A stretch of DNA of 10,103 bases from Cyclostephanos tholiformis (taxonomy: Eukaryota; Bacillariophyta; Thalassiosirophyceae; Thalassiosirales; Thalassiosiraceae). The position numbers were made by a program, and so were the translations under genes. Positions 3-10,103 of the stretch are shown here, piece after piece. The stretch lies in the NCBI GenBank assembly GCA_036939975.1, contig JALLPB010001381.1, forward strand, positions 1-10,103, given 5' to 3'. The number at the start of each line of letters is the position of its first letter. The stretch's first letter is position 1. Under the pieces are notes generated by a model. It had not been told where the DNA came from and made no database searches. It saw nothing but the letters and a program-made list of their open reading frames with translations.

Positions 3-587
3 AGTGGCGACAAGCTCTTTTTCATCGCCCATACGATCGGCACGTTGACTCGTGAGTGGCGGCTCGTCCGGGTTGCATTCCAGGACTCCATCTCGCTCTA
101 CCCTGCCGCCCTCCAAGACGGTTGCTTCCTTGTCGAGTTCTACATTTCGCACCCAAACGACGTACGCTGCAACGCTATCAATCAGCGTTTTTGGTTGCAA
201 TATCGCGATCATATCGCCCCCACTTTTGGGCATGTTGATAGCCATCTCATCACACCTTCCGACACATCCGAGAGCAGAGCTTTGCAACTCAATCTGATTC
301 CAGTTCGCTGTTGGGTGAATCTTACCCACAGCAACACCTTCATCCATGGTCCTTTCGACTTTGTGACCGTTTGGGGTCGCAAAACACGCGACCGTGTGGG
401 TCAACAGGATTGGGATGTACTTTGCAGCAAATCCTCCATGTTTGTCAACAAGGTGCCATCGTTTTCTCTACCGACGTATTCCATCCATTCGGACCGCGGC
501 GTCCACACAATTCTCCCAAATTCTCTGGCTGTCTCCGATTTCATCGACTCGCCAGCTTCTTCGGCCATTCGACCCGGCATTGGTTGA
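3..587 (+). CDS. pol: Pol polyprotein, C-terminal fragment of the upstream element copy (partial)
   Basis: The reading frame is open from the window edge to a TGA at 585-587 and encodes about 194 residues equivalent to the last part of the complete pol at 3808-9432. A start codon inside the window is not expected, since the protein begins upstream. The segment is the conserved post-integrase C-terminal domain, with the shared motifs LFFIAH, REWRLVRVAFQDS, RFWLQYRD and HGPFDF. By hand count 18 residues differ from the downstream copy, while 25 codons differ synonymously, which suggests the domain has been kept by purifying selection. No frameshift or premature stop is present. Confidence 0.9.
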   Translation, partial: SGDKLFFIAHTIGTLTREWRLVRVAFQDSISLYPAALQDGCFLVEFYISHPNDVRCNAINQRFWLQYRDHIAPTFGHVDSHLITPSDTSESRALQLNLIPVRCWVNLTHSNTFIHGPFDFVTVWGRKTRDRVGQQDWDVLCSKSSMFVNKVPSFSLPTYSIHSDRGVHTILPNSLAVSDFIDSPASSAIRPGIG

Positions 588-616
588 CAAAAGGTCTTCT
601 GAGCTACCCCCAATAA

Positions 617-635
617 TTTTTTTTCTTTTTCTTCT
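617..635 (+). promoter_or_regulatory. Pyrimidine tract downstream of pol stop
   Basis: A run of eight T followed by CTTTTTCTTCT begins 30 nt after the upstream pol stop. It is preserved at 9458-9476 although its flanks differ by indels. A U-rich box near the 3' end of retroelement RNA can assist plus-strand priming or 3' processing; which role applies here is unknown. On this strand it is pyrimidine-rich, so it is not itself the polypurine tract. Confidence 0.4.
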
Positions 636-735
636 GGCATATCGCCGCAGTTGTCCAAATGGATCATTGCCCTATGTTGTTGCAACGAGGAAACGATATT
701 TAGCTCAGTTATTGCGCTCCAGCAATTGGTATTGG

Positions 736-790
736 GTCTGACTCTCACAATTTGCAATCAGATTTACACGATTTGCAGTCTGACTCTCAC
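736..790 (+). repeat. Short direct repeat, two perfect 13-bp units
   Basis: The unit GTCTGACTCTCAC occurs at 736-748 and 778-790, 42 bp apart, with ATTTGCA also repeated between them (750-756 and 771-777). In the second inter-element region both units survive but are degraded, so the duplication predates the split of the copies and seems unconstrained. Confidence 0.5.
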
Positions 791-846
791 CCCAGTCCCT
801 CCAGCTGTTTGACTCGGCTTGCCTCGTCTTCTAATTTAGGGTCGCT

Positions 847-867
847 TAAGTGAGCTGGACTCACTTA
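847..867 (+). other. Hairpin A (8-bp perfect stem, 5-nt loop)
   Basis: TAAGTGAG pairs with CTCACTTA around the loop CTGGA. The counterpart at 9687-9707 keeps both arms exactly and changes only the first loop base (ATGGA). Conserved arms with a varying loop suggest the fold, or a protein site with dyad symmetry, is maintained. It sits in the presumed LTR. Confidence 0.6.
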
Positions 868-884
868 TCAGCCATTTGGGACTG

Positions 885-921
885 GTGTCACGAGTGTCAC
901 TTCTTGACACCTTCGTGACAC
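885..921 (+). other. Hairpin B (9-bp + 6-bp stem with compensatory change)
   Basis: GTGTCACGA (885-893) pairs perfectly with TCGTGACAC (913-921). Inside it GTGTCA (894-899) pairs with TGACAC (905-910) around a 5-nt loop, with a 2-nt bulge at 911-912. In the second copy C891 is T and its partner G915 is A, so pairing is kept. This may be an RNA structure in the LTR transcript, or a cluster of TGTCA/TGACA protein half-sites. Confidence 0.65.
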
Positions 922-993
922 ATGTGTGATACCTCCTGGAAATAGCGTAGTCTAAAAACTAGCTATAATCTTTCCCTTCTAGCCACACTTAAG

Positions 994-1005
994 TGGTGCT
1001 CCATG
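994..1005 (+). promoter_or_regulatory. Primer-binding site candidate (tRNA 3' end complement)
   Basis: TGGTGCTCCATG begins with the TGG that pairs with a tRNA CCA end and lies 136 nt upstream of the gag ATG. It is identical in both copies within a diverged leader. The complement ends in TGGAGCACCA, which fits the acceptor arm of eukaryotic tRNA-Ile(UAU) as I remember it; that assignment is tentative. Six nucleotides further on, AATCGAACCCCC (1011-1022) resembles the complement of a tRNA T-arm and is also identical in both copies. Confidence 0.5.
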
Positions 1006-1129
1006 AAAATAATCGAACCCCCACATTCTACCCATCCTTTGCCATTGAGCTATTCCCCCATTCGACCCTGCCGGTCTGCTCCTCCCGTGCGATATCAGCA
1101 GGATTCTTGACGAGCGGTACTCTCGAAGA

Positions 1130-3613
1130 ATGAGCGTCAATAACGCTGCGGTGTCTATCCGAGGCGAGATGAGCTTTGCACCCCTCGACCTCGTCGAGGC
1201 TCGCGTCGGCAGTAATTCCCTCAAGCTCTACCCCCCTATCTCGAAGGACATGCCCGTCTGGGAGCGTGGGCATGCTTTTCAGGTTAACAAGGCCGCCCTC
1301 GCTAATCTACCGGCGGATATTAGCCTCATCTTGGACGCCTTCGGCGCCCAGCTCAATTCGAGCTCGACGGTCGAAGGCATTATCAGCGACTGGCGTCGAG
1401 TCTTCAAGGAACGATGGATGGACTTCTCTCATCTGAGTATTCTCTCTTTCCATCGCTCCGATGGCAATCGCCTTGACAACACGACCACCGCGGCTGACCG
1501 CTCGGTTCTTCTCCCCATCACCGACGGACCCCTTGCGAATTCTCGCAAGCAGGACGTGAAGTTCGTTCGCGTCAATCTGACGCTCGACTTTTCGACCAAA
1601 CAGGGGCTCATCACCTTAAACCCCTATCCTGTTAGTACCATCCTTCGCACGTCGTTCTATATCGAGCTGCCCCAAGGCAGTCGCCAGGTCCAAGACGGAA
1701 ACGGGAACGCTTACCAGTTGGTTTCTTTCCTCGGCACCGACGACCTCCGTACCTTGACACGTGAGCAAGTGCTTACCGACATATTAGATGTCGTTCAGCA
1801 AACCGGCCCCATGCTGCTTCGTGCCTCAGACTTCAATCTTCAGGTTGCAAACACGGACGCCCACGACATCGCCCGTGACATCGATCACAAGATCTTGACG
1901 ATGGCTTGGCACCAGATTTGCGCTTCCGTCTTCGAAGAAATCTGTACAGGTTATACGAATCAGCCCCAGGCCGCCCTCGACCACATCAAGCAAAGCTTCG
2001 TTGATTCAGACGGCAATGCAGTCTGCATCCCTGTGTATGCGTATTATCAACGCATGATGAGCGCAATGCGCCCATTCGCGAGTGACGAGCGATTCCCGAA
2101 GAGCGTTTGCAACGCACTCATCGACGGAATGGACGGCCGTCTCCTCCGAGTTTTCAAAAAATATTATCCCGATCACTCAGTCCTCCACAACCTCTCCGCC
2201 ACTTTCCAACGCGAGCGCTTTCGTCAGATCCTCGCGGCCATGCAGACCGCTGAAGACGAGGTCTATTCCATCTCCGACATTGCCCGCGAGTCAATCGGCG
2301 GCCAGGCCTTCCATGCGACGGCGTACGCAAGCCAGTGTGAGCGCACTCTCGAGCGCTACCCATCAGGTGGCGGATACTCCTCCGGCGACGGCTATCGTTC
2401 AGACGGAGGATATCGCTCCGACGGTGGTCGATCTGACTCTTCGCGAGGATCCCGGGGCGGTTTTGGACGTCATCACAAATGTTTCGGGTGCGGGAGCACC
2501 CAGCATTCATGGATCAAAGAGAAAGTCATCGTGTGCCCAAATAAGGACAAGCCCGGTGTCAAGGAAGCCGCCGAGAGGAACTATCAGGAGTACATCGCAA
2601 ACTCCCGCAGGCGAAACAAGAAACGTAAGGAGTCCAAAGAAAAACCAGCATTCGACTACTCCAGCCTTAGCGCCAAGGATAAGGCTGCGGCTAGGGAGGG
2701 TGTCCTCGCTGATTTATGCATCGGGGCCCGCAGCGACGAGGCATCCACAATCACTCAGGACTCTTATCGCGCTAATGACCGCCCTCGTGACACCAAGAAA
2801 GGGAAGATGACGATCCTCGTTATCGACGTTTCCGTCCTTTCATCAAACAGCAGCAACAAAAGTCTGCTACCGGCGCCAATTGTGACAAACTTCCCCCACA
2901 TTTTGCTGCAACTAGGGACCGAGTTGGATTGCCCCAGGTGCCCGGTTTTGCGCTGCGTCATCGATACTGCAGCTGCTTTATCTACAGGGAACTTTCATTT
3001 CATCGCCGCAGTTGCGAAACGTTATCCCCATTGCGTGGCAAAAATATTTGTCCCCGAAGATTACAATCCAATAGTACTCTCCGGCATCGTGCAACGCGGT
3101 GGCGAATCCGTTTCCACCGAGCTCACGGTTGGCTTCCAATTTTACCTGCCGTACCTCACGAAGGACGGCTCGCCCACCAGCATTGTGATAGCAACGGGCC
3201 CGCATGTGACCGTGAATCTCATCGTTGGCCTTCCCTTCATCCAGGCGACTCGGGCGATTATCGACTTATCCGACGATGTTGCCGACCTCCGCGAGTTGGA
3301 CGCCCCTCCCTTCCCCATCGAATACCGCCGCGCAACGGTGCACGTACCTGTTATCGAGGAAGGCGTCGACCGCCCCGTTCATCTATCGGCTTCTGAGTCC
3401 GCAATCATCCAAGATGTCGAACGCCTCGAGGCGTATTTTCTCAACTTTGACGAGGGAATGGAGGGGACTAGTTCCCGGCGCGTCTCTTTTGGATCGAGCC
3501 CCGGAAAAAACTTCCCATCCTTCACTCCTCCACCCGCGTCCCCAAATGGGTTTGTGGACTCTAGCATGGAGTATTACAGTGTTCCGGGTATGGGGCCCGA
3601 TTCATTCCAGTGA
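1130..3613 (+). CDS. gag: Gag-protease polyprotein (ORF1) of Ty3/gypsy-like retrotransposon
   Basis: This 827-residue protein is expected to form the cytoplasmic particle, bind element RNA and supply the protease. Residues 1-405 have no motif I can name and fill the capsid position. Residues 410-446 are a Gly/Ser/Tyr/Arg/Asp-rich linker with YRSDGG repeats. A zinc-knuckle-like C451-x2-C454-x4-H459-x9-C469 follows; the last spacing is longer than the usual x4. A basic patch lies at 491-505. Residues ~600-710 form a retropepsin with D612 in DTAA and the flap-distal IVGLPF at 698-703; residues ~727-827 are an unassigned tail. The ATG has A at -3 and aligns with the downstream copy. The TGA at 3611 overlaps a splice donor. 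ORF1 carrying the protease while ORF2 starts at RT is unlike most Ty3/gypsy elements. Confidence 0.88.
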   Translation: MSVNNAAVSIRGEMSFAPLDLVEARVGSNSLKLYPPISKDMPVWERGHAFQVNKAALANLPADISLILDAFGAQLNSSSTVEGIISDWRRVFKERWMDFSHLSILSFHRSDGNRLDNTTTAADRSVLLPITDGPLANSRKQDVKFVRVNLTLDFSTKQGLITLNPYPVSTILRTSFYIELPQGSRQVQDGNGNAYQLVSFLGTDDLRTLTREQVLTDILDVVQQTGPMLLRASDFNLQVANTDAHDIARDIDHKILTMAWHQICASVFEEICTGYTNQPQAALDHIKQSFVDSDGNAVCIPVYAYYQRMMSAMRPFASDERFPKSVCNALIDGMDGRLLRVFKKYYPDHSVLHNLSATFQRERFRQILAAMQTAEDEVYSISDIARESIGGQAFHATAYASQCERTLERYPSGGGYSSGDGYRSDGGYRSDGGRSDSSRGSRGGFGRHHKCFGCGSTQHSWIKEKVIVCPNKDKPGVKEAAERNYQEYIANSRRRNKKRKESKEKPAFDYSSLSAKDKAAAREGVLADLCIGARSDEASTITQDSYRANDRPRDTKKGKMTILVIDVSVLSSNSSNKSLLPAPIVTNFPHILLQLGTELDCPRCPVLRCVIDTAAALSTGNFHFIAAVAKRYPHCVAKIFVPEDYNPIVLSGIVQRGGESVSTELTVGFQFYLPYLTKDGSPTSIVIATGPHVTVNLIVGLPFIQATRAIIDLSDDVADLRELDAPPFPIEYRRATVHVPVIEEGVDRPVHLSASESAIIQDVERLEAYFLNFDEGMEGTSSRRVSFGSSPGKNFPSFTPPPASPNGFVDSSMEYYSVPGMGPDSFQ

Positions 3614-3807: not shown

Positions 3808-6800
3808 ATGTCCTCCGTCCCCCCATCGGGACCGCATGACTCATCGCGAGTCCCATCAGCAGCGCTGGACTCCATTCGGGTAGCGCCCAAACCTTCATTT
3901 CGTGCAAAGAAGAAGGCGCGGAACGTGTTTTACGACGATCGTGGCTTCCCGGACCAATCGTCTGATTACGATAATCTCCTCCACAACATTGACGGCGGCG
4001 TGGTTCTCCGCCGCCGAAAGTTCGTTGCCCCAACCCTCGATATTGATGACCCACTCTTCAACTTCACCTTTTCCGAGGATCGCGACGGACCCCAACTTGC
4101 GAAGGACCTGGACCTCTCCCATTTGGAACCTGCGCAACGCGATCGAGTAACGGCTTTGATTAAAAAATATTGGTGTGTTTTTGACGATCGTGGCACCTTT
4201 GTCCCTGTCAAGCACTACCAGTGCATCATCGACACTGGTACCGCCACCCCTATCGCCATGAAGAATATACGATACGGACCTCGTGAGATCCCTATTATGG
4301 AAAAGAGCATCGCCGCACTCGCGAAAATGGGACAGATTAGGCAAATACACGACGGGCCATGGCTGTTCAAGGCGTTACTCGCACCGAAGCCGCATCAGGA
4401 ACGTGTCCGCAATATTGACGACTTCGTCTGGCGTTTCTGCGTCAATTACATTCCGCTAAATCAGGTCACGCGTCTCATTGCATACCCGATCCCGCGCTGC
4501 GACGATGCTGTCGAGTTCGCCTTCCAAGGGTTTTGGATGTGGCTATACGACGCCGTCATGGGTTATCACCAGATCTCTGTCGCACCGGAATCGCAGGATA
4601 AACTTGCATTCCAAGGCCCAAACGCGATTAAATGGACTTACACGGTTATGCCATTTGGCCCCACCAATGGCCCAGCTACCTTCATTATGATGATCCACGA
4701 CATCGATAGTGTCTGGAAGGAGGCTGCCTCTTTGTTGGGTCTGTCGATAGGCAATCATGTCGATACTAAAATCATTGTGGATGATATCATTAATTGGGGC
4801 GACTCCTTCGACACGGCACTAAAATATATTGAATGCCAACTTCGCGTCGCAAAGGCATATCGCCTCACGTTGAGCCTAAAAAAGAGTCATTTCTTCCCAC
4901 GGCGTTTTGAATTCGTCGGGATCGACGTTTCCCCTGACGGCAACCGTCCGGCAATGTCAAAGCATGACCTCCTCCGCACCTGGCCAACCCCGACGGTCGT
5001 GCGTGATATTGCCAGCTTTGTTGGGTTCCTCCAATTTTACAGCAAATTCATCCCATGCTTTGAACTACGAATCGAACCCCTCCGCAACATCATGCTAAGG
5101 GACTACACTGAGCCAATCGGTGATTTGTGGACCGCGGAAGCTCAAGAATGTTTCAATTCACTTCGCACGTCGATCTTGGATGACCCCTGCCTTCGGAGAT
5201 TCGACCCGTCGAAGTTGACTGTGCTCCGAACAGACTTTTCATCTAAGGGATTTGGTTACGTCGTGTGTCAACCTGACGCCGACGACATATCCTTGTCCCT
5301 CGTCGCCGAATTCATGTCTGGTAACGGTTTTCGTTTCTTGACAAAACATGATAAAGGCACGTTGCACCCTGTCGCATTCGGTAGCCGGCGCGCCCGCGGC
5401 AACGAAAAATATCTCCACTCATACCTAGGTGAAGCCTTTTGCGGTGATTATGCCATGAACAAATTTCGCCACATGTGTTGGGGCCGTCGTTTTGTATGGG
5501 TCACTGACTGCTACGCAGTGAAATTCATCCTTTCGTACGATGGCGCGAACCAGGCCATTCTGCGCCTTCAGATGCGCCTGATGGGATGGGACGTGGATAT
5601 TGTCCACCGCCGCAACGAACACCTTGTCGACGCCGATTATTGGTCGCGCCTTGATGCCGACTTATGCTACGACCCGACGTTTCGTACCTATCTCCATCTT
5701 ACCAATCACTTCAAGCATACCAACCCACCACCTGCCGAGATACCGATTGAGGATCGGCACATGCCATACTATCGTGGCCCCCGCCTTCAGCAGCCATGCG
5801 CGCCGCGTGATAATGATATTCCCGGTGAATCACCTCCAGCACCTGTCGATGCGCCAGACCACGCCAATGCAACCTTGCTGGCTCGCATTGTGACAGATGG
5901 CGACCAGGGGTTCACCACCCTCTCCCATCGCCCGGTTCGTTTCGGCTGTTTCAATCCCCCGGGGACATACCCCCAGTCAACCCCACCGAAGGTGCTTTAC
6001 AACGCCGAATTACCTATGATCGCATATTCTGCATCGCACTTCCCTTGGGCCGTTTACGGCTTTAACTCTGGTCACTTCACATCAACAATCGAGCATCGCA
6101 ATTTACCATTCTCAATCGTTCTTGCTTGCGACCCATATACCTACGGCCGAGCCCTTTTCCACGAAGTGGCGAAATGCGACACGGTCCTTTTGGGTGCTAC
6201 TGAGCTCTTGAGTCACATCCGGGGATCCGGCATCATCAGCCCTGTTGACGGCTACCTCATTCATTCACATCGCTACCAGTCTGGCGAGCCCGCCACCATC
6301 TTCTGGTCTCTTCAGGCTTCTATCGTTGAGCAACTTTATGCCATCCGCAAATTACGCATTTTTGTTGCATTCGTACACCCCGACCATGATAGTCGGAGCG
6401 TTACCAAGTTCGTCAATCGACTCCACTCACTTAGCTGGGTCATCACAAAGACTGACTGCAGTTTTCCTGACTACGGCGATTCGGTAGTGGGCACATGCTC
6501 TGTCATTATTGGCGTCCACGGCGGATCGCAGCCAACGGTCAACCCCCTATTGTTCAGGATGCCACCAACTCGTCGGCCGCTTCCCTTATCTTCATTCATA
6601 TGGGAACCATTTAATACCACGGAGTACCAGGTATCGTTTGCTCGTGGTGATACTAAATTCGATGTTCCTTCGGAATCAGCGTCCATGATTGCCACCTCAC
6701 CTACCCCAAAGGTTTCTGCATCGCTCCCCGCGGGTCTTATCATCTTGTACTACCTCCATCGACACGACGGGAATGTCTCCAGTCTTACCGGATCGGCAGT

Positions 6801-9432
6801 CCTTTCACTGGACAGCCTATGCCCTCAATTCGACAGCTGCCCAAATGAGAACATTTTTCGCGGTCATTTCGGTATCGAGTATTATGTTGACGGCACCCAA
6901 TACGTTAGGGCCATCTCACCGTTCGAATTCGCATCGTGTTACGGGCTCATCGATCGGCTTCGTTACTGCCTGGCGCAGCCTGCCCACTGGTTCGCGCTCG
7001 ATATGGGCATCCCAGCACTCACATCCGCCTGGATATTTGATCATATCAACGACCGTCTATGCGATATTCGTGACAGCAATACCGAGATTTTTCCGCCCCG
7101 GCAATATGCTGCCCCAGCCGCCCACATTCAAGCATTCGTCAATGGCACCATCGCCACTCGACTCCCCGACCGCCAACGATGGATCGACGAATATGGGTCA
7201 GACTCTGTGTTATCCAAGGTCCGACACATCGTTTTGAACCCCGGGGCGCTATCTAAAGAAACCCTAAAGGACATTCCATTTAACTATCACTCGATGCTGC
7301 GACAGGCGTTGGTTGTCATCGAAGATGACATGCTTGTCTTTCGCGAGCCAATTTCGGGCGGGTTATCTTACACCAAATTGATTCTGGTGCCAGCCTCTTT
7401 ACGGAACATAATATTCATTGCCTTCCATTCAAACGCCATCGGTGGTCACTTCAACGCCGTCCGAACACTGCACCGCATTCGCCTTCGTTATTATTGGCCA
7501 GGAATGTATTCCTACATCAAACGGATGTGCGCCGCATGCCCTGGTTGCACCCTCTCCAACGCAACAAAATCAAAATCCAGCGAGTTGATTTACAATTTCC
7601 CGACCGAAGCCCCATTCATGGTCCTTCACGTTGATGCCTATATGGCTGGTTCACACACTGGTTTTGAGGGCTCTGAGGTCTACCTCGTCGCATGTTGTGG
7701 TATGTGTACCTTTGGCGCTCTCGAGCCGGTAGCCGGAGCTAACTCAACTACATTTGCATCGGCCATTATGAAAATTCAACTCAGATATGGGTTCTGTCAT
7801 ACTGTAGTCTTGGATAAAGATACAAAGTTCTTTGGTGTTTGTCGTGAGGCCTTGGATCTGTTAAAGATCAATTGCCACGTCCTCTCGGGAGACAATCACA
7901 ATCCTATGCTTGTCGAGCGCCTTTGCCGATATTTCAACAAGGGATTGACAATTATGTGCAACGAACGCAATTCCGTCCGCGTCGCGCTTGAATGCCTTCT
8001 CCTCCTCCTTTATGCGTGGAATTCATGCCCTGTCCCGGGCACGGACATATCTCGGAGCCTTGTGGCAGTCGGCCGGGAATTCGCATTTCCAATAGACTTT
8101 TCCAGCGGCAGGCACTGGCAATTGACATCATCACCCGCCACCGTTGAGAGTTACTCAAAGGAGCTTGCTACACGCTTAAGCTCGTGCCGCGCGATCGCCG
8201 ATATTTTAGTTTCGGAGCAACGCGATTGGCATCGTGCCCTCGTCAATTCCCGACGGCCTAACCCGCGCGTCTATTCACCCGGTGATATCGTCTTTGCTCG
8301 TCGCGCAACCCGTTCCGTTGCAAGCAAAGGTCGCGTTGGCAAACTTGAATACAAATTCACCGGCCCGTGGCGTATTGTCGAATCGTTACGCGGCGCGTCG
8401 TATGCCATCGAACACTGCCACTTGCCTTCGCGTAGGGAGAAAAAGCACGCGTCAGATTTGACGCCATACCCGATGGAACTCATTCCATTTGAACCTGTCG
8501 ATGGCGCCGATACTCGCTATGGTCAGCTCTACAAGCCAATCGGCGAAAACCCTTTCAAAGAAGCCGGCCTCAAAGGTTTCAATCCCGCCGCTCCCTTCAA
8601 GGTCGCAGCACAGTTTCTCAATGTTGGCGACTATAAAGACTTCCGCTGGCCTTCGCTTGCGGAGCTCAATGATGAATTTGATCCGTGGGAATGGCTTAAC
8701 GACGAGGAACGACGGAGCTTCATGCGTGATAACGACCCGTTCTCACCCCCCGCTCTTTATACTGGACCTCCCCCAAGCCCGCCCACTGCCAACACTCCGC
8801 CACCATCGGCACCGTCGATTACCGACCTTGCGCCGCGGATCATTTCCAGTAACGACAAGCTATTTTTCATCGCCCACTCAATTGGTACGTCGACTCGTGA
8901 GTGGCGGCTCGTCCGGGTTGCATTTCAGGACTCCATCTCGCTCTACCCTGCCGCCCTCCAAGATGGTCGCTTCCTTGTCGAGTTCTACCTTTCGCACCCG
9001 AACGACGTACGTTGCAACGCCATCAATCAGCGTTTTTGGTTACAATATCGCGATCATGTTGCCCCCACTTTTGGGCATATTGATAGCCATCTCATCACAC
9101 CTTCCGACACCTCTGAGAGCAAAGCTTTGCAACTCAATCTGATTCCGGTCCGCTGTTGGGTGAATCTTACCCACATCGACACCTTCATCCATGGTCCCTT
9201 CGACTTTGCGACTGTTCGGGGTCGCAAAACGCGCGACCGTGTGGGACAAATGGATTGGGATGTACTTTGCACCAAATCCTCCATGTTCGTCAACAAGGTG
9301 CCTTCGTTTTCTCTACCAACGTATTCCATCCATTCGGACCGCGGCGTCCACACTATTCTCCCGAATTCTCTGGAAGTCTCCGACTTCATGGACTCGCCAG
9401 CTTCTTCGGCCATTCACCCCAGCATCGGTTGA
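3808..9432 (+). CDS. pol: Pol polyprotein (ORF2): reverse transcriptase, RNase H, methyltransferase-like domain, integrase, C-terminal domain
   Basis: The 1,874-residue protein copies element RNA to DNA and integrates it. RT (~115-385) shows D248 in YDAVMGYHQI, MPFGPTNGPATF (281-292) and D325/D326 in IIVDDI, where Ty3 elements usually have an aromatic residue before xDD. RNase H (~470-615) has D476, E542, D567 and D610. A domain at ~735-1083 resembles a degraded C5 DNA methyltransferase. Integrase has a zinc-binding H1207-x6-H1214...C1244-x2-C1247, core residues D1276, D1336 and E1370 (33 residues between the last two), and a GPY/F-type module at ~1492-1545 (TGPWRIV). A proline-rich linker (~1645-1675) leads to a conserved ~190-residue C-terminal domain. 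There is no protease, which lies in ORF1. The frame is open only from 3757; ATG 3808 is the first Met, but translation may enter by splicing from gag. All catalytic positions look intact. Confidence 0.93.
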   Translation: MSSVPPSGPHDSSRVPSAALDSIRVAPKPSFRAKKKARNVFYDDRGFPDQSSDYDNLLHNIDGGVVLRRRKFVAPTLDIDDPLFNFTFSEDRDGPQLAKDLDLSHLEPAQRDRVTALIKKYWCVFDDRGTFVPVKHYQCIIDTGTATPIAMKNIRYGPREIPIMEKSIAALAKMGQIRQIHDGPWLFKALLAPKPHQERVRNIDDFVWRFCVNYIPLNQVTRLIAYPIPRCDDAVEFAFQGFWMWLYDAVMGYHQISVAPESQDKLAFQGPNAIKWTYTVMPFGPTNGPATFIMMIHDIDSVWKEAASLLGLSIGNHVDTKIIVDDIINWGDSFDTALKYIECQLRVAKAYRLTLSLKKSHFFPRRFEFVGIDVSPDGNRPAMSKHDLLRTWPTPTVVRDIASFVGFLQFYSKFIPCFELRIEPLRNIMLRDYTEPIGDLWTAEAQECFNSLRTSILDDPCLRRFDPSKLTVLRTDFSSKGFGYVVCQPDADDISLSLVAEFMSGNGFRFLTKHDKGTLHPVAFGSRRARGNEKYLHSYLGEAFCGDYAMNKFRHMCWGRRFVWVTDCYAVKFILSYDGANQAILRLQMRLMGWDVDIVHRRNEHLVDADYWSRLDADLCYDPTFRTYLHLTNHFKHTNPPPAEIPIEDRHMPYYRGPRLQQPCAPRDNDIPGESPPAPVDAPDHANATLLARIVTDGDQGFTTLSHRPVRFGCFNPPGTYPQSTPPKVLYNAELPMIAYSASHFPWAVYGFNSGHFTSTIEHRNLPFSIVLACDPYTYGRALFHEVAKCDTVLLGATELLSHIRGSGIISPVDGYLIHSHRYQSGEPATIFWSLQASIVEQLYAIRKLRIFVAFVHPDHDSRSVTKFVNRLHSLSWVITKTDCSFPDYGDSVVGTCSVIIGVHGGSQPTVNPLLFRMPPTRRPLPLSSFIWEPFNTTEYQVSFARGDTKFDVPSESASMIATSPTPKVSASLPAGLIILYYLHRHDGNVSSLTGSAVLSLDSLCPQFDSCPNENIFRGHFGIEYYVDGTQYVRAISPFEFASCYGLIDRLRYCLAQPAHWFALDMGIPALTSAWIFDHINDRLCDIRDSNTEIFPPRQYAAPAAHIQAFVNGTIATRLPDRQRWIDEYGSDSVLSKVRHIVLNPGALSKETLKDIPFNYHSMLRQALVVIEDDMLVFREPISGGLSYTKLILVPASLRNIIFIAFHSNAIGGHFNAVRTLHRIRLRYYWPGMYSYIKRMCAACPGCTLSNATKSKSSELIYNFPTEAPFMVLHVDAYMAGSHTGFEGSEVYLVACCGMCTFGALEPVAGANSTTFASAIMKIQLRYGFCHTVVLDKDTKFFGVCREALDLLKINCHVLSGDNHNPMLVERLCRYFNKGLTIMCNERNSVRVALECLLLLLYAWNSCPVPGTDISRSLVAVGREFAFPIDFSSGRHWQLTSSPATVESYSKELATRLSSCRAIADILVSEQRDWHRALVNSRRPNPRVYSPGDIVFARRATRSVASKGRVGKLEYKFTGPWRIVESLRGASYAIEHCHLPSRREKKHASDLTPYPMELIPFEPVDGADTRYGQLYKPIGENPFKEAGLKGFNPAAPFKVAAQFLNVGDYKDFRWPSLAELNDEFDPWEWLNDEERRSFMRDNDPFSPPALYTGPPPSPPTANTPPPSAPSITDLAPRIISSNDKLFFIAHSIGTSTREWRLVRVAFQDSISLYPAALQDGRFLVEFYLSHPNDVRCNAINQRFWLQYRDHVAPTFGHIDSHLITPSDTSESKALQLNLIPVRCWVNLTHIDTFIHGPFDFATVRGRKTRDRVGQMDWDVLCTKSSMFVNKVPSFSLPTYSIHSDRGVHTILPNSLEVSDFMDSPASSAIHPSIG
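6010..7056 (+). other. Degenerate C5-cytosine DNA methyltransferase-like domain within Pol (residues ~735-1083)
   Basis: Located between RNase H and integrase. Motif order follows C5 methyltransferases. A motif I/II-like stretch runs from YGFNSGHF (750-757) to ACDPYTYG (773-780), matching the usual glycine-rich loop followed by an acidic residue before Pro-Tyr. VDGYLIHSHRYQ (813-824) sits where PPCQ belongs, with Tyr823 in place of the catalytic Cys. FVAFVHPDHD (852-861) takes the ENV position, and SFPDYGD...SVIIGV (885-903) the GVPQxRxR region. A target-recognition-like segment ends in LSLDSLCPQF (999-1008). VRAISPFEFASCYGLID (1033-1049) matches motif IX, and MGIPALTSAWIF (1066-1077) motif X. 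All catalytic signatures are lost, so a binding or structural role is more likely than methylation. The assignment is by eye. Confidence 0.55.
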
Positions 9433-9457
9433 CAAAAGGTCTCCTATGCTACCCCAA

Positions 9458-9476
9458 TTTTTTTTCTTTTTCTTCT
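9458..9476 (+). promoter_or_regulatory. Pyrimidine tract downstream of pol stop (second copy)
   Basis: Identical to 617-635 over the eight-T run and the following CTTTTTCTTCT, 25 nt after the pol stop. Its preservation amid indels supports a role in RNA 3' processing or DNA-strand priming, which cannot be told apart from sequence. Confidence 0.4.
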
Positions 9477-9686
9477 GGCACATCGCCGCAGTTGTCCGAT
9501 TGGATCGTTGCCCTTTTTTGTTGCGACGAGGAAACGATATTTGGCTCAGTTATTGCGCTCCAGCAATTGGTATTGGGTCCGACTTTCACTACTTCGCAAT
9601 CAGGTTTATGATTTGCTGTACGACTCTCATCACAGTCCCTCCAGCTGTTTGACTCGGCTTGCCTCGTCTTCTAATTTTGGGTGGCT

Positions 9687-9707
9687 TAAGTGAGATGGAC
9701 TCACTTA
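9687..9707 (+). other. Hairpin A (second copy)
   Basis: TAAGTGAG and CTCACTTA arms are identical to those at 847-867; the 5-nt loop is ATGGA and not CTGGA. Confidence 0.6.
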
Positions 9708-9724
9708 TCAGCCATTCGGGACTG

Positions 9725-9761
9725 GTGTCATGAGTGTCATTCCATGACACCTTCATGACAC
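9725..9761 (+). other. Hairpin B (second copy)
   Basis: GTGTCATGA (9725-9733) pairs with TCATGACAC (9753-9761), and GTGTCAT (9734-9740) with ATGACAC (9744-9750) around a 3-nt loop, with the same 2-nt CT bulge as the upstream copy. The T9731-A9755 pair replaces C891-G915, and the inner stem gains one pair. Confidence 0.65.
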
Positions 9762-9833
9762 GTGTGTGACACCATCTGGAAATAGCGTAGCCTAAAAACT
9801 AGCCATAATCTTTCCCTTCTAACCACACTTAAG

Positions 9834-9845
9834 TGGTGCTCCATG
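9834..9845 (+). promoter_or_regulatory. Primer-binding site candidate (second copy)
   Basis: TGGTGCTCCATG is identical to 994-1005 and lies 137 nt upstream of the downstream gag ATG. The T-arm-like AATCGAACCCCC recurs at 9851-9862. The only changes across both blocks are two bases just after the first one (AA to TT). Confidence 0.5.
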
Positions 9846-9970
9846 TTAATAATCGAACCCCCGAATTCGCCCATCCTTCTCTGCCTTTGGGCTCTCCCCC
9901 CTCCGACCCTGCCGGTCTGATCCCTTCGTGCGATAGCAGCAGGTCTCTCAACGAGCAGCACTCTCGAAGA

Positions 9971-10103
9971 ATGAGCATCAACAATGCGGCAGCGTCCATC
10001 CGAGGCGAGATGAGCTTTGCACCCCTCGACCTCGTCGAGGCTCGCGTTGGCAGTAATTCCCTCAAGCTCTACCCCCCTATCTCGAAGGACATGCCCGTCT
10101 GGG
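9971..10103 (+). CDS. gag: Gag-protease polyprotein, N-terminal fragment of the downstream element copy (partial)
   Basis: The first 44 codons of the next gag copy run off the window. The ATG context (GAAGAATGAGC) matches the complete gag at 1130. Codons 3-9 carry seven nucleotide differences from that copy, two of which change residues (Val3 to Ile, Val8 to Ala). The following 106 nt differ at only one synonymous position. No stop or frameshift is seen. Whether this third copy is complete cannot be told. Confidence 0.88.
   Translation, partial: MSINNAAASIRGEMSFAPLDLVEARVGSNSLKLYPPISKDMPVW

Follow-up and report, generated by a model that had tools for sequence, protein, structure and literature searches.

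Introduction

Retrotransposons that carry C5-cytosine DNA methyltransferases (DNMTs) are reported for Klebsormidium and Symbiodinium and, according to the accessible part of that report, the Gypsy element KnitGypsy-Dnmt3 of Klebsormidium nitens has in its Pol a DNMT with conserved functional residues and repeats described as DIRS-like in arrangement, while in a yeast assay the DNMTs of SymbioDIRS-Dnmt3 methylated CG and the tested SymbioLINE one did not (de Mendoza et al. 2018, PMC5890265). The accessible text of another report describes Tat and the oomycete elements Chronos and Archon as Ty3/Gypsy elements that bear an additional RNase H of archaeal type (PMC5348765). Here, we consider a stretch of 10,103 bases from the diatom Cyclostephanos tholiformis (the window), which is one whole contig (G000:C1342) of a 25 Mb genome and contains a long terminal repeat (LTR) retrotransposon whose Pol is predicted to have, between RNase H and integrase, a domain with a complete C5-cytosine-methyltransferase fold. 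An earlier note, made from the letters of this DNA, had claimed a catalytically dead C5-methyltransferase-like domain at this place and had referred to reports of active ones in retrotransposons of some algae and dinoflagellates; the observation is confirmed, and its interpretation as a fold kept without chemistry is supported, with DNA recognition, target choice, and interference with host methylation, the functions that it suggested, being candidate roles. Our preferred reading, to which we assign a probability of about 0.45, is that this is a conserved, non-catalytic Pol domain of a Ty3/gypsy-like lineage, likely serving as a DNA-binding module that aids the integrase to hold or choose DNA.

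Predicted Fold and Relatives of the Domain

In the window Pol, about 600 residues separate RNase H (Pfam end at residue 592) from the zinc-binding domain of the integrase (start at residue 1194), and Pfam assigns no domain to this spacer; in L122, a further Ty3-like Pol from this genome, the matching parts lie 63 residues apart versus 598 here. Within the spacer, on the forward strand like all features of the window described below, positions 6010..7086 (Pol residues 735–1093) encode the C5-methyltransferase-fold domain without catalytic residues, as judged from the predicted structure, a fold search, profile-profile comparison, and alignment. The fold search of the predicted structure returned M.HhaI/DNMT-type folds, as the earlier note had anticipated, and the predicted fold matches the C5-cytosine DNA methyltransferases (PF00145) throughout, the target-recognition region included. 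The Rossmann half, with the positions of motifs I to VIII, occupies 6037..6522 according to the strands of the model and the alignment, and reading of the sequence places in it GFNSGHF (6058–6078), HSHRYQ (6262–6279), FVHPDHD (6370–6390), and YGDSVVG (6472–6492). It is followed by the position of the target-recognition domain (TRD; 6523..6867, limits set by us), the fastest-changing part of the domain, and by the positions of motifs IX and X (6868..7086, from profile-profile comparison, alignment, and reading), where VRAISPFEF stands at motif IX (6904–6930) and MGIPALTSAWIF at motif X (7003–7038). The motif positions previously given for this domain proved exact on reading, and its recognition explains why these Pol proteins have, over 400 residues or more between RNase H and integrase, no annotated domain.

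Relatives were gathered by a domain-centered search, which found 22 proteins, by a second search from P0023, which added five, and by a search centered on the reverse transcriptase (RT), which found 399 related Pols, of which 120 are listed. Five of these 120 are named to species (Cyclotella cryptica, C. meneghiniana, and Skeletonema dohrnii); the named hosts are diatoms, two being confirmed as such and C. meneghiniana giving synonym entries only. Matches to both RNase H and integrase were found in 123 of 128 proteins, with a spacer of at least 400 residues in 119 of the 123. Seven spacers were excluded for their length, four of them being short and the others having 400, 706, and 968 residues; the remaining 116 were analyzed, and all 116 unite as one family under an iterated hidden Markov model (HMM). 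We divide them into 70 near and 46 diverged relatives, a working division by database rank and not a clade; the diverged 46 match the near profile with an expectation value (E) of 3.6e-17 over 324 columns. In the genome of the window itself, 12 of the 47 places of an integrase zinc domain are on contigs with a domain match.

The relation to methyltransferases is visible only through profile-profile comparison or structure. The PF00145 HMM gave no match at E up to 1 for the window Pol and its spacer, and none at E up to 10 among 22 domain sequences, where the program filters out most matches with E beyond about 0.1; a plain HMM built from 82 C5-methyltransferases did not detect the relation (best E 0.31), a profile search of solved-structure sequences gave two chance matches only (E 1.8 and 2), a global hhalign comparison gave nothing (score 1.5), and a forced full-length alignment is meaningless over the first ~140 columns. 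The 82 comparison sequences, namely M.HhaI, the methyltransferase of the host itself, and 80 prokaryotic ones, were selected for the PCQ motif and hence provide no control for motif IV. Against their profile, a 22-sequence domain profile scored 34.2 (maximum of 60 shuffles 23.9; reversed 13.3), a 28-sequence one 34.1 (maximum of 100 shuffles 24.9; reversed 15.0), and a separate profile of the 46 diverged relatives 37.4 (maximum of 60 shuffles 18.3), with the RT, RNase H, integrase, and C-terminus profiles of the same proteins scoring 12.8–20.2. The associated probabilities are modest, 23–40%, and the weight rests on the contrast with the shuffled and reversed controls. The program pairs GDSV with PQxRER and VRAISPFEFASC with RKLHPRECARV, and does likewise in the diverged group; for motifs I–VI the sequence alignment is not confident, and the register was taken from the strands of the structure model. 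Half of the outcome that the earlier note had named as refuting was observed, in that plain Pfam searches give no PF00145 signal, while the profile-profile scores lie above those of the shuffled controls. A chance resemblance, in which the region would be an unrelated fold or a disordered linker, could draw on this silence of Pfam and on the best E of 0.31 from the plain HMM, but two structure models and three profile comparisons concur on the C5-methyltransferase fold, and we regard such a coincidence as highly improbable.

Lost and Retained Residues

The catalytic residues are missing throughout the family. At motif IV, PC occurs in none of the 116 sequences, and no Cys stands at the aligned position (a gap in 11 sequences), which in the near group is mostly Arg (39/70); the possibility, raised earlier, that some homologue might retain PCQ was thus not borne out in this set. 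At motif VI, neither EN nor the aligned Glu is present (0/116 for each, versus Glu in 82/82 C5-methyltransferases), and in the QxRxR of motif VIII both the first Arg and the Gln are absent from all 116, versus both Arg in 82/82. The second Arg is kept in 42 of the 116 relatives, 41 of them in the diverged 46. The distance from the Cys-equivalent to the next helix is 5–16 residues in 116/116 (10 in 73, 9 in 36) versus 20–30 in 82/82 C5-methyltransferases; as far as the alignment indicates, the loop after the Cys-equivalent, which we take to be the base-flipping loop of these enzymes, is largely gone, shortened to about half its length or less. The window's domain and seven copies in its own genome (L002–L008) have, where readable, neither PC nor ENV, no PC being found at motif IV in L001–L008 where that segment aligned, and in the search for an active relative PF00145 was listed for none among the 120 listed of the 399 RT-related Pols. 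Strings of the form PC[QTS] and EN[VI] do occur elsewhere in the spacers; on alignment all of them lie outside motif IV, and those with EN outside motif VI as well. In the diverged group (within P0073–P0128), 41 of the 46 keep the second QxRxR Arg, which is lost in the window's group, and 20 of the 46 have a Cys near motif IV; these may reflect how the active site was lost step by step, or a changed chemistry.

Motif IX, which in C5-methyltransferases holds the target-recognition region in place, has its Arg in 113 and its Glu in 113 of 116 sequences (three having Asp), with a spacing of six in 116/116; in the 82 C5-methyltransferases the Arg is present in 82, the Glu in 81, and Asp in one, with the same spacing. 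The Pro of motif X is found in 114 of 115 relatives. That the region might be a structural spacer, which keeps RT-RNase H and integrase apart or aids Pol assembly without recognizing DNA, would fit the preservation of its length (at least 400 residues in 119/123) despite sequence drift, and a similarly degenerate connection domain is known from retroviral RT; the near-invariance of the motif IX Arg and Glu goes beyond what a spacer needs, and we consider this explanation unlikely.

In 69 of the 70 near relatives, strand 2 ends in an acidic residue whose position corresponds to that of Glu40 in M.HhaI, and the motif I Gly is found in 68/70, with His in 63/70. The acid and the Gly speak for an alternative in which the domain still binds S-adenosylmethionine (AdoMet), S-adenosylhomocysteine (AdoHcy), or a nucleotide; as a pseudo-DNMT it would sense the cofactor, or bind host methyltransferases or chromatin and so bias the methylation of the new copy, in a manner likened to the mode of action of DNMT3L. 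The host genome also encodes a C5-methyltransferase with FPCQ and ENV (L009, G000:C425:10659–11654), which likewise speaks for this alternative and makes cytosine methylation in the host plausible; fragments of another host C5-methyltransferase are found at G000:C446:13007–13879. However, motifs I and II are not recognizable in the diverged 46, in which the domain is nevertheless kept, so that a working AdoMet site is unlikely as the common function, and we hold the pseudo-DNMT to be a rather doubtful account of the family.

Proposed Role and Observations Against It

Four copies in G000 have an open frame across the domain (L001–L004), and in these it is under purifying selection. In the six pairwise comparisons, the nonsynonymous divergence (dN) of the domain is 0.29–0.54 and fourfold sites differ by 0.69–0.84, near saturation; since the synonymous divergence (dS) is saturated, no dN/dS ratio is given. 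Identity between copies is 27–56% at the TRD position and 55–67% in the Rossmann half, and in each of the six pairs the domain evolves faster than RT, RNase H, and integrase core.

For the preferred reading, a non-catalytic DNA-binding module next to the integrase, we propose the following course of events. A C5-methyltransferase would have been taken up by an ancestral Ty3-like element, and catalysis would have been lost before the spread of the sampled lineage; the DNA-facing scaffold, consisting of motif IX and the fast-changing target-recognition region, would have been kept, and the domain, as an N-terminal extension of the integrase, may read or clamp DNA, be it the new complementary DNA (cDNA) or the target. 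A more far-reaching version, which we consider possible but doubtful, is that a large and old diatom Ty3/gypsy lineage put a captured methyltransferase to use as a non-catalytic reader of DNA that is fused to the integrase and chooses integration sites by sequence or methylation state; if true, this would be a new mode of retrotransposon aiming beside chromodomains and integrase tails.

Several observations weigh against the preferred reading. In the 70 near relatives, the strongest conservation also falls on the former cofactor pocket, for which a pure clamp on DNA would have no use, and the fast change of the TRD may be mere relaxation. In the related Pol P0109, RNase H passes to integrase without the domain, which may thus be dispensable; P0109 groups with P0106 and P0096 in the RT tree (Shimodaira–Hasegawa-like approximate likelihood ratio test support 80), a placement that suggests that the domain can be lost. 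Of the three outgroups without the domain, this tree includes only one, on a branch of length 10, the sequences of the other two being too short. Lastly, a Cys is found elsewhere in residues 819–824 in 24 of the 116 sequences (20 in the diverged 46), often as CP, and a Glu stands one residue before the ENV position in nine of 116; this speaks against a clean loss, and some members of the lineage may have residual or modified chemistry. On account of these 24 and nine sequences we weigh slightly higher the explanation that the active site has been rebuilt for other chemistry, with HSHR, HPDHD, GDS, and GFNSGH as its residues in the near group, where they are strongly conserved, and a shifted Cys in part of the diverged group. 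It nonetheless appears improbable, as the P0023 branch (HCPRT, HLHPST) and the diverged group carry other residue sets, and the profile search of solved-structure sequences yielded nothing beyond its two chance matches.

Organization of the Element and Its Window

The LTRs and the Pol order RT, RNase H, integrase are those of Ty3/gypsy elements; the RT tree gave no clear placement in a Ty3 clade. The 5' LTR (3..1262, a minimum extent, as the contig starts inside or at the LTR) and the 3' LTR (8848..10103, extending to the contig end) form a direct repeat with 90.0% identity over 1259 columns. The first open reading frame (ORF), at 1130..3613 and of 827 residues, is named Gag-protease from motifs and position, namely a Cys-rich CFGCGSTQHS (2480–2509) and a DTA protease-like motif (2957–2977), both from reading of the sequence; a Pfam search of this ORF gave no match. 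The second ORF (3808..9432) encodes Pol, with 1874 residues and without an internal stop, its final 194 codons being within the 3' LTR. Pfam assigns to it the reverse transcriptase PF00078 (4534..4926, with VDD read at residues 324–326), the RNase H PF17919/PF17917 (5128..5583), and the integrase zinc-binding domain PF17921 (7387..7563); the integrase core (rve) was not reported by the Pfam search of the window Pol and is placed by reading at 7588..8247 (limits set by us), where D1275, D1336, and E1370 are present.

Both ORFs overlap the LTRs. The Pol tail in the 3' LTR (8848–9432) has the same frame open in the 5' LTR (3–587), and the first 44 codons of Gag are within the 5' LTR and recur at 9971–10102. 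Between its copies in the two LTRs (3–584 versus 8848–9429), the Pol tail shows dN 0.049 and dS 0.24, with 18 of 194 residues different, and has therefore diverged under constraint. A single insertion followed by plain decay would not produce this pattern; two copies may be joined in the contig, or the element may be a recombinant, and dating by the LTRs is consequently unsafe.

Comparison with Known Systems

M.HhaI and other PF00145 enzymes share with the window domain the whole predicted fold, the spacing of the motif IX Arg and Glu and, in near relatives, the acid of strand 2, whereas they possess PC, ENV, the first QxRxR Arg, and a full catalytic loop, which in the window domain are missing or, for the loop, reduced to about half or less. 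DNMT3L, a host regulator, is a C5-methyltransferase homologue that has no catalytic activity and is retained for a different role; it resembles the window domain in its lost catalysis but is not part of a mobile element. The lineage offers a natural experiment on the value of a methyltransferase scaffold that no longer methylates, and the domain is a candidate targeting device adjoining the integrase in ecologically major algae.

A literature search for retroelements whose methyltransferase domain is inactive or additional returned no paper, with most subscription journals and preprints outside its coverage, and the domain is not mentioned in the accessible parts of a diatom-focused survey of microeukaryotic DNMTs (PMC9998398), the GyDi paper (PMC2806351), and a paper on Leptocylindrus transposons (PMC7017206). 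The GyDi elements of Thalassiosira pseudonana, as described in the accessible text of Maumus et al. 2009 (PMC2806351), are also diatom Ty3/gypsy elements and, on a comparison by hosts only, perhaps belong to the same broad lineage. Tat, Chronos, and Archon, as far as the accessible text describes them, likewise have a Ty3/Gypsy Pol with an acquired domain, which unlike that of the window element is an RNase H (PMC5348765).

Close parallels are in the accessible text of PMC5890265. SymbioDIRS-Dnmt3 and SymbioLINE-Dnmt of Symbiodinium are likewise retrotransposon-borne C5-methyltransferases, but they belong to the DIRS and LINE classes and retain functional residues. Like the window element, KnitGypsy-Dnmt3 is an LTR Gypsy element whose Pol ORF includes a C5-methyltransferase domain, and in both the domain is under purifying selection, yet KnitGypsy-Dnmt3 keeps the functional residues and is recognized as Dnmt3, whereas such residues inside Pol, as in active DNMT-retrotransposons, are absent in 116/116 of the window lineage, for which Pfam is silent. 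Active DNA methyltransferases captured by retrotransposons are known, and the lineage described here would show the next step, in which the chemistry is lost and the predicted fold, with one DNA-facing motif, is kept through deep divergence.
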